Source: an uncultured Schlesneria sp.
GTDB lineage: Bacteria; Planctomycetota; Planctomycetia; Planctomycetales; Planctomycetaceae
Assembly (NCBI GenBank): GCA_903911795.1
Contig: CAIWEX010001040.1
Location: forward strand, 1 to 34,071
Direction of reading: 5' to 3'
Length of the DNA stretch: 34,071 nt
The notes below the pieces were generated by a model. The model did not search any database and had not been told where the DNA came from. It saw only the letters and a program-made list of their open reading frames with translations. Positions 25,835 through 28,350 of this stretch are shown here, piece by piece (position 1 is the stretch's first letter; each line of letters starts with the position of its first letter). Both the position numbers and the translations under genes were made by a program.

Positions 25835-25904
25835 GGCTTCCCTTCGGTCCAGCCAACAGGAATTCACTGGTGACGGTCGACCCACATTGCACACGAGCTC
25901 GTGG

Positions 25905-26014
25905 GGTAGCTCGATTTGCTTCAAGCCGGGGGCCGAAGATCCAAGAAACCTCAAGCCGACATTTGACAAGGTTTAGCGTGACTCGTACATCGGCGCTCGG
26001 TTTGAAGTTTCTTG
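25905..26014 (+). repeat. Dispersed repeat family D, copy D1, with internal inverted repeat
   Basis: CTCAAGCCGACATTTGACAAGGTTTAGCG (25950-25978) identical to 27391-27419; arms CAAGAAACCTCAAGCCGA (25942-25959) and TCGGTTTGAAGTTTCTTG (25997-26014). Confidence 0.88.
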
Positions 26015-26107
26015 TGCTGGTGAATGGCAGATGGATTTACCCCTGCTCCTTCGAGCCGCATGACTCCAATAATCAGTCCCATTCGCTTGTGATTTTCCGA
26101 ATGACCA

Positions 26108-26953
26108 TCAGAAGGCAGCACATAGCCACGCGATATCTGCGACAAACATCCGGCCCATTACCAGCAAAAGAAACAGCATGCCGACATAGGTCGCCATGAT
26201 TGCAAAATTCTCGGGGCGTTTGCCAAGTACGAACTCGATGATCAAAAACACAAGATGGCCACCATTCAAGCAGGGTATCGGCAAAAGATTAGCTATTCCC
26301 ACTCCGAAAACGGTCACGCCAAAACAGGTCGTCCAGGCTGTCCATGAATAAAGTCCGGCGGAACCGAGTGTTGAAACCCAACCAATAAAACCGCCCCAGC
26401 CTTTCAATGATGCTAATGTTACGACGCGAATCGAGTACTCAAGCACGGTTGACTCGAACAGCAACTTCTGGCCGCCCCACGTTGAAGGGGCTTGAGCGAT
26501 CGTCAAATGCGGCACTGCATTTCTATTCCACTGTTGCGGTAAACCGCGGTCAACGACCACTTGATCTCCGGCAGCGAGAATGGAAATTGCCACACAAATC
26601 AACCCGATGACGATCGAACTAAGTGGTCCGATTAAAAAGATTGCGGCACGTCTGGGGATTGAGAGGTCGCTGTAACGCCCTCGCGGCACATCGACTGCCC
26701 CGTCAACTTCGGAAGCGTCACCGGATTCTTCGACGTCCCCCAGGAATTTAGTGTGGCCTCCTATGGGAATCGCGCTGAGTCGGCATTCGACACCGCTGAT
26801 TGTCTTTTCAAAGATGACGGGACCAAAACCGACCGAAATGCTTTCGACAGTCGCTCCAACCCACCTGCCTACAACGGCCAGGGAAATGACATAAATCGCC
26901 TGTGTTAGTCCGAATGCTAACGCAGTCAACAGCGATGCAATCAACCAATCCAT
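26108..26953 (-). CDS. M50 / site-2-protease-like membrane protein lacking catalytic motifs (probable pseudoprotease)
   Basis: GRWVGATVESISVGFGPVIFEKTISGVECRLSAIPIGGHTKFLGD; RRAAIFLIGPLSSIVIG; ANLLPIPCLNGGHLVFLIIEFVLGKRP; HExxH position reads YVISL. Confidence 0.85.
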   Translation of the reverse strand: MDWLIASLLTALAFGLTQAIYVISLAVVGRWVGATVESISVGFGPVIFEKTISGVECRLSAIPIGGHTKFLGDVEESGDASEVDGAVDVPRGRYSDLSIPRRAAIFLIGPLSSIVIGLICVAISILAAGDQVVVDRGLPQQWNRNAVPHLTIAQAPSTWGGQKLLFESTVLEYSIRVVTLASLKGWGGFIGWVSTLGSAGLYSWTAWTTCFGVTVFGVGIANLLPIPCLNGGHLVFLIIEFVLGKRPENFAIMATYVGMLFLLLVMGRMFVADIAWLCAAF

Positions 26954-27212
26954 CGTATTTCAGTCCGTTCTCGATGGGGAAATGACAAATGACTTTTGAT
27001 ACGTAGGAAGGTGCCAACACCTGTTAACGTCATCCCATTGCCGCCAAGTGACTTTCACTTGAGTGCGCCCGACCGGCAATTCTGGCGATTTCGATCAATA
27101 GTGCGGTCATCGCGGCTGTGCAACACGCGCAATTATATATTGGATGCACGTCTTTGCCACACAAAAACCCCGATCATTGCGAAACAGCACGCTGAACGAT
27201 CGGCAGCTACGG

Positions 27213-27333
27213 CGGGGTGGCAGGGTCAGGTGCGAAGCGGATGGCCCTGAAAGCTTGAGCGTGTACTCCCGCTCGGGGCCTTCCTGTTGGTTCAACCCTG
27301 GCCTGCCAGCCACGGTGATCGAATGACAACCGC
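27213..27333 (+). repeat. Dispersed repeat family A, copy A1
   Basis: CGGGGTGGCAGGGTCAGGTGCGAAGCGGATGGCCCTGAAAG...CTGCCAGCCACGGTGATCGAATGACAAC. Confidence 0.85.
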
Positions 27334-27339
27334 ACATCA

Positions 27340-27453
27340 CGGCAGGGTGGCCCGGCTTGCCTCAATCCGGGGGCCGAAGGTCCACGAAATCTCAAGCCGA
27401 CATTTGACAAGGTTTAGCGAGCATCGGGGCTCGGCTTGAAGTTTCTTGTGCTT
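27340..27453 (+). repeat. Dispersed repeat family D, copy D2, contiguous with A1
   Basis: GGCAGGGTGGCCCGGCTTGCCTCAATCCGGGGGCCGAAGGTCCACGAAATCTCAAGCCGACATTTGACAAGGTTTAGCG...TCGGCTTGAAGTTTCTTGTGCTT; arms 27386-27400 / 27431-27445. Confidence 0.88.
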
Positions 27454-27503: not shown

Positions 27504-27905
27504 TCAACCCTGCGCCGGCGGCGGGGCGCCGTGCTTCCGGATATATGCATCTCGCAACTCGCGAGTATATTCTGCCATATTCTGGCCTGTCTCGGTCCAA
27601 AACAACTCTTCCTCTGGGATGTGCTCACCACAGCCACAACAGAACGAACCAGCACCGTAGAGGAACGGGTTGACCAGATAGCTTCGGATGATCTCCTCGG
27701 GCATGCGCGTGACCACACCGCATTTCGGGTGGCGGTAGCACTGTGGGACGCCGGCCAGCGTCCCCTCGTAACGACCGGTCGGATGGAGCGTGACGTACTC
27801 GTTCTGCTGCCCGTCAGGTCGCAGCGCCTGGTGGTTTTCCTTATGGCCAGAATAAAAGAAGCGGAAAACCCGTTGATGACAGTACGGACACCGAATGAAA
27901 AGCAT
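27504..27905 (-). CDS. Conserved-looking Cys-rich zinc-ribbon hypothetical protein
   Basis: MLFIRCPYCHQRVFRFFYSGHKENHQALRPDGQQNEYVTLHPTGRYEGTLAGVPQCYRHPKCGVVTRMPEEIIRSYLVNPFLYGAGSFCCGCGEHIPEEELFWTETGQNMAEYTRELRDAYIRKHG. Confidence 0.75.
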   Translation of the reverse strand: MLFIRCPYCHQRVFRFFYSGHKENHQALRPDGQQNEYVTLHPTGRYEGTLAGVPQCYRHPKCGVVTRMPEEIIRSYLVNPFLYGAGSFCCGCGEHIPEEELFWTETGQNMAEYTRELRDAYIRKHGAPPPAQG

Positions 27906-28230
27906 TGACTGCCTTCGGGCATAAGGTCTCGTGCGTCTGGAGACCGATATTGGCATCCGCCTGCCGCCGAACGTTCAAGGCAACGGGAACAGTGCTCCGT
28001 TTCCCATTGACTGTCTCGTTCGGCCATTTTTGTACCGTAAGGGCAACCACGAATCAAACAAATTGAACGAACCCTGATCGTACACCACGAAATGTGTCGT
28101 GCCACGTTGTGCCAAGGGGAGGATGTTGAAAGATTTTCCTGATGACGCCATGATTCCGAAGCGACTGGTACATTGATTCCCCAAAGGAAAATCCGATGCG
28201 TGCAGAGGAAACGAGACTGGCAATTCGTCA

Positions 28231-28350
28231 GCGGGGTGGCAGGGTCGGGAGCGAAGCGGATGGCCCTGAAAGTTTGAGTGTCCCCTCTGTTTCGGGACCT
28301 TCCCGTTGATCCCGTTCTGGCCATCCTGCCACCATGATCGAATGACAACA
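28231..28350 (+). repeat. Dispersed repeat family A, copy A2
   Basis: CGGGGTGGCAGGGTCGGGAGCGAAGCGGATGGCCCTGAAAG...; bounded by GGTGGCAGG (28235-28243) and CCTGCCACC (28325-28333). Confidence 0.85.

Follow-up and report, generated by a model that had tools for sequence, protein, structure and literature searches.

The window analysed here, that is, the whole stretch of 34,071 nucleotides from an uncultured Schlesneria sp., carries on its minus strand a gene encoding a pseudo-site-2-protease (P0001; 26108-26953), of which the frame runs uninterrupted from ATG to stop and encodes 281 amino acids with an M50/RseP-type core and no PDZ domain. The gene is a solitary one, with comEC on one side and a small gene of no assigned product on the other. 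A dispersed intergenic repeat occurs in two direct copies, downstream (25904-26018, plus strand) and upstream (27345-27452, plus strand) of this gene; the copies are 82-94% alike and end in ...TTTGAAGTTTCTTGTGCT or a near variant. The repeat matched 29 places in the genome, several of which are clustered on contig C1156. The same intergenic patch contains a second repeat pair (27212-27330 and 28231-28349; 119 nt, 80% alike), and a 150-amino-acid ORF (27504-27956, minus strand) with several CxxC-like motifs that give it the look of a zinc ribbon (CPYC, CCGCG) had no Pfam match. The resemblance to a promoter at 27160-27132 (minus strand) was no greater than chance would give. Bin contamination was rejected, as the contig carries planctomycete cytochrome and DUF1501 genes and a comEC gene with 66% identity to its counterpart in a congener. 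Similarly, a phage or plasmid origin was rejected, since matches there were only weak or RseP-like. Upstream of comEC in the congeners, none of the window's neighbours was present, and the P0001 locus is therefore species-specific within the sample. The comEC matches in two congeners (G005:C78, L090; G006:C88, L089) contained one in-frame stop each (TAA and TAG).

Both profile searches and structure prediction assign P0001 to the site-2 protease (S2P) or M50 fold family. Pfam PF02163 (Peptidase_M50) matched the protein with an E-value of 1.7e-26 (93.3 bits; cut-off 27.2), and an AlphaFold2 model based on an 18-row alignment (pLDDT 86.8, pTM 0.83) comprised a helix at residues 2-31 (TM1), a beta-hairpin (36-52/55-70), a helix at 99-126 (TM2), two short strands at the site of the RseP PDZ domains, helices at 159-178, 189-202, 204-222 (TM3) and 230-243, and a C-terminal helix. 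The retained membrane-associated beta-hairpin (residues 36-70, VESISVGFGP...IPIGGHTKF; 26744-26848, minus strand) was located by alignment and modelled with a pLDDT of about 89-94. Foldseek matched the model to RseP of Escherichia coli (7w6x; E 2.0e-10, TMq 0.66), Aquifex and Kangiella, and weakly to the S2P of M. jannaschii, which bears out the preserved M50 fold signature that the initial annotation had read from the sequence. The most divergent member of the family described below was predicted to have the same elements and gave the same Foldseek matches. An RseP core fold of P0001 is supported by these models, yet the RseP rows in the alignment guide the prediction, making it homology-dependent. 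The best solved relatives by profile were RseP of Kangiella (7w6y; E 2.4e-27) and of E. coli (7w6x; E 6.8e-18); the family profile aligned with both halves of one solved RseP structure through model residues 2-146 and 168-272, placing Tyr opposite the first His of HExxH and Asn opposite the Asp. Among the sequences and structures searched, RseP was nearest to the family, of which no member reached the cut-off of TIGR00054 (RIP metalloprotease; 147.55 bits), P0001 scoring 75.8 bits and the other two members 85.8 and 63.0 bits.

In S2Ps, the HExxH and LDG motifs bind zinc, and the Glu activates a water molecule. Activity is lowered when these motifs are mutated (PMC10202637). In P0001, the place of HExxH in TM1 is taken by YVISL (residues 21-25; 26879-26893, minus strand), which aligned to the HELGH or HEWGH of RseP, and no HExxH was found elsewhere when the whole protein was scanned. 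The second motif lies in NLLPIPCLNGG (residues 222-232; 26258-26290, minus strand), in which NxxP is kept and the zinc-ligand Asp of LDG is replaced by Asn230 (codon AAT, 26264-26266). Both replacements had been proposed earlier, with coordinates that were exact, as had the absence of a PDZ domain; here, Pfam detected M50 alone and the alignment showed that the PDZ block of RseP is missing, so that none of the PDZ domains is found of which RseP (group I S2P) has at least one between its core halves. Judged by its sequence and by the tree, P0001 is a member of the PDZ-bearing, group I RseP lineage, the other sampled members of which nearly all possess a PDZ domain.

Searches in related genomes placed P0001 in a small family of pseudo-S2Ps. 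P0002 was retrieved from the 170 genomes of the source family (genome G182; E 2.3e-47, 34% identity, full length), and a search with the alignment of P0001 and P0002 revealed P0003 in another family of the class (genome G732; E 1.5e-51). Both relatives are 32-34% identical to P0001 over their full length. The three members come from three genera and two families, with carriers amounting to 2 of the 170 genomes in the source family and 1 of the 95 in the family of G732. No further member was found in these 95 genomes, in 398 sampled genomes of the class or in 392 of the phylum, and the sole matches in 14 sampled congeners were RseP proteins. These sensitive searches covered the Planctomycetota; other bacteria were scanned for close relatives with P0001 alone. 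Rare and scattered as the family is, it cannot be essential to the group, and it may serve a niche role. Homologues that retain HExxH were considered as orthologues of P0001 and rejected. Indeed, the RseP matches in relatives hit P0001 in two separated halves, were mostly frames of 480-840 amino acids, and kept HE[LMF]GH where the motif lay within the stretch examined; they are therefore orthologous to the RseP that each genome encodes and not to P0001. The HExxH-bearing homologues thus comprise RseP, a paralogue of P0001, and other M50 proteins.

The two relatives display the same losses. P0002 contains AVYVVVQA and MIPIIPMNGG, P0003 contains AVYTLAQA and LLPLPSLNGF, and both lack a PDZ domain. 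At the HExxH position, P0001, P0002 and P0003 read YVISL, YVVVQ and YTLAQ, so that none has the motif of an active S2P in TM1; at the LDGG position they read LNGG, MNGG and LNGF, with the third zinc ligand replaced by Asn in all three. Conservation across homologues, proposed earlier as a check, held for the Tyr at the first His and the Asn at the Asp (3/3), whereas the remaining letters of YVISL vary. The 13 planctomycete RseP proteins compared have 62 invariant columns; 24 of these persist in two or all three of the pseudo-S2Ps, among them P63, G65, G66, R102, G109, N222, P225, G231, E240 and D273, which include the PxGG of the beta-hairpin, and the metal ligands and catalytic Glu (H, E, H, D) were lost in all three. 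Eleven other positions are invariant specifically in this clade, namely A19, Y21, A26, G29, T68, S112, V178, W186, W207, N230 and R268. The former active site, F-H-E-L-G-H-F in RseP, reads A-Y-x-x-x-[LQ]-A in each member, accompanied by an invariant GWGG (residues 185-188; 26390-26401, minus strand) in the loop that aligned to the site of GPIGI in RseP. In all three proteins, Ala stands in place of the Phe on both sides of the motif, Tyr in place of the first His, Gly in place of Ala56 of RseP and Asn in place of the Asp. These substitutions are non-random, and the remodelling is common to the clade. The 15-residue stretch surrounding the former HExxH holds four of the 11 clade-specific invariants; the hypergeometric p of about 0.002 is a rough value, as the columns there are constant in the enzymes and favour such counts.

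With these residues gone, the loss of proteolysis in P0001 is well supported at the level of sequence. An alternative, a still hydrolytic enzyme built around a new active site or another metal, finds support in the polar Y21 and N230, which are clade-invariant and at aligned active-site positions. However, the only His residues of P0001 (67, 149 and 233) are not common to P0002 or P0003, no His or Cys occurs at an aligned position common to the three, and E240 and D273, the acids that are still invariant, are just as constant in RseP without serving there as metal ligands. A substitute metal site is therefore unlikely, a site built from other residues was rejected for want of a conserved His or Cys, and a new hydrolase is considered very improbable.

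The three pseudo-S2Ps appear to share one origin. In trees of 33 M50 proteins and of 22 RseP-type proteins, they formed one side of a branch (support 100/99, and 100/100 once the motif columns had been taken out). Leaving out P0002 or P0003 did not separate P0001 from the other member. The pseudo-S2P branches are long and the tree program warns of joins among long branches, so the exact placement of the clade beside RseP is unsure; the grouping, with branches of such length, leans partly on derived residues in common. Among the three genes, identity at third codon positions was 0.23-0.32, compared with 0.24-0.26 expected by composition, pointing to synonymous saturation, and it was 0.41-0.47 at first positions and 0.57-0.62 at second positions, compared with 0.28 expected by composition for the latter. 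Such a pattern is expected from prolonged purifying selection on the protein. Core identity was 32-35% among the pseudo-S2Ps versus 62% between the RseP proteins of G000 and G182, and the pseudo-S2Ps are therefore fast-evolving, old or horizontally moved. The catalytic residues have thus been lost in a clade that was kept over a long divergence, with three members and saturated synonymous sites, which is the mark of a pseudoprotease. A decaying or recently killed RseP paralogue, that is, a pseudogene in progress in this species only, would fit the absence of the gene from the 14 sampled congeners and its repeat-rich, non-syntenic location beside comEC. Yet two independent relatives, at 32-34% identity, have the same losses and the same replacements Y21 and N230, the frames are open in all three and the codon positions reveal constraint at the protein level, leaving decay a very slight probability. 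P0001 is thus probably a maintained, non-proteolytic protein of the S2P fold (probability about 0.8). The initial annotation had favoured a regulatory or binding role over decay; the second half of this claim holds, given two diverged relatives with the same losses, one clade, intact frames and codon constraint, and the role itself is something that we infer.

Intact RseP proteins accompany the pseudo-S2Ps. The source genome encodes, on contig C1177, an RseP of 688 amino acids from the chosen GTG start, with HELGH, LDGG and PDZ-like stretches, adjoining a gene that we take to encode DXP reductoisomerase. Several further M50 proteins were present in this genome, and P0001 is therefore an extra member. 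An RseP with HELGH is encoded in all three genomes with a pseudo-S2P. P0001 shares with the stress-signalling protease RseP of E. coli, Kangiella and Aquifex the lineage, the core fold (TM1-beta-hairpin-TM2-TM3) and the motifs GFGP, IPxGG and NxxPxxxLxGG, but differs in having no HExxH, LDG Asp or PDZ domain, in the GWGG in the GPIGI-motif loop, and in its 281 amino acids compared with about 650-780 for planctomycete RseP. The gene for P0002 lies 98 bp downstream of what is presumably a Gfo/Idh-like oxidoreductase gene (G182), and that for P0003 lies 52 bp downstream of a presumed aldehyde-dehydrogenase-like gene (G732). No conserved gene neighbour or operon partner was found across the three loci; their neighbours differ, and the genome context therefore names no partner.

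The most likely mode of action is that of holding membrane helices instead of cutting them. The RseP-type core, made up of TM1, a membrane-embedded beta-hairpin, TM2, TM3 and a C-terminal helix without PDZ domains, would not cut by the S2P mechanism, as all three metal ligands and the catalytic Glu are gone. Those elements that hold the transmembrane substrate in S2Ps, namely the cleft, beta-hairpin and NxxP...xNG helix, are retained, and the former active site is repacked in a clade-specific manner. The pseudo-S2P then probably binds transmembrane segments without cutting them and serves as an adaptor, decoy or modulator of the intact RseP of the same genome, in a mode likened to that of iRhoms and Derlins among the rhomboids and EGY3 among plant S2Ps. 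A role as helix-binding adaptor or modulator in general is somewhat more probable than not; a retained fold alone is no proof of helix binding. For P0001, we infer the absence of any enzymatic activity, the binding of transmembrane helices and the identity of any client or partner.

Two sub-cases of this adaptor or modulator role may be distinguished, each of which, taken singly, is possible and rather unlikely; they carry equal weight and the analysis makes no choice between them. In one, P0001 would inhibit RseP or act as its decoy, damping regulated intramembrane proteolysis through competition for substrate or pairing in the membrane. The relatedness of the pseudo-S2Ps to the RseP lineage and the retention of an HELGH-bearing RseP in all carriers argue for this, as does the precedent of BofA, a membrane protein that fills the cleft of the S2P SpoIVFB and thereby regulates it (PMC9042235). 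However, planctomycetes with RseP but no pseudo-S2P manage, the PDZ domains that gate RseP substrates are missing, and there was no linkage to rseP, sigma or anti-sigma genes in the stretches examined. In the other, P0001 would work independently of RseP, as a Derlin-like chaperone or as an adaptor for feeding or stabilising membrane proteins, be it in quality control or by lipid distortion. Rhomboid pseudoproteases act in this way, according to one account (PMC8641752), EGY3 reportedly stabilises other proteins of the chloroplast (PMC10978774), and the substrate-holding elements of P0001 are kept with catalysis lost. This is an argument by analogy, however, and no AAA-protease or chaperone gene is a conserved neighbour.

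Pseudoproteases are well known among rhomboids, and among S2Ps they are known in plants. Rhomboid pseudoproteases provide the precedent for binding membrane clients without cutting, iRhoms and Derlins having kept an intramembrane protease fold and lost catalysis (PMC3149277, PMC8641752); they work alike, but their protease fold is unrelated to that of P0001 and they are eukaryotic. The precedent of EGY3, raised in the initial annotation, is correct, as this plant S2P homologue with a non-proteolytic role is classed as a pseudoprotease for its lack of HExxH (PMC10978774). The likeness to P0001 is drawn from that description; EGY3 is a plant chloroplast protein, whereas P0001 is bacterial and RseP-like. 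No description of a bacterial S2P pseudoprotease family was found in the literature searched, which was covered in part. P0001 might tentatively, and with less than even confidence, be the first S2P-class intramembrane pseudoprotease to be described from bacteria, namely a PDZ-less, dead RseP that would bind transmembrane segments and tune either signalling through RseP or the quality control of membrane proteins in planctomycetes, as an iRhom or EGY3 counterpart of bacterial origin. A dead bacterial RseP would make the function of an intramembrane protease scaffold devoid of catalysis testable in a simple heterologous system, for which RseP reporters are established.

A PDZ-less RseP-type M50 protein of 241 amino acids that keeps HELGH and LDGG was encountered in genome G044 (P0005; L045:5705-6430, minus strand), apparently an active, minimal RseP to judge by its motifs. 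It resembles the pseudo-S2Ps in its RseP-like core without PDZ domains, but scores 173.5 bits with TIGR00054, keeps both catalytic motifs and groups apart from the pseudo-S2Ps in the trees. Loss of the PDZ domain alone is therefore not tied to loss of catalysis.
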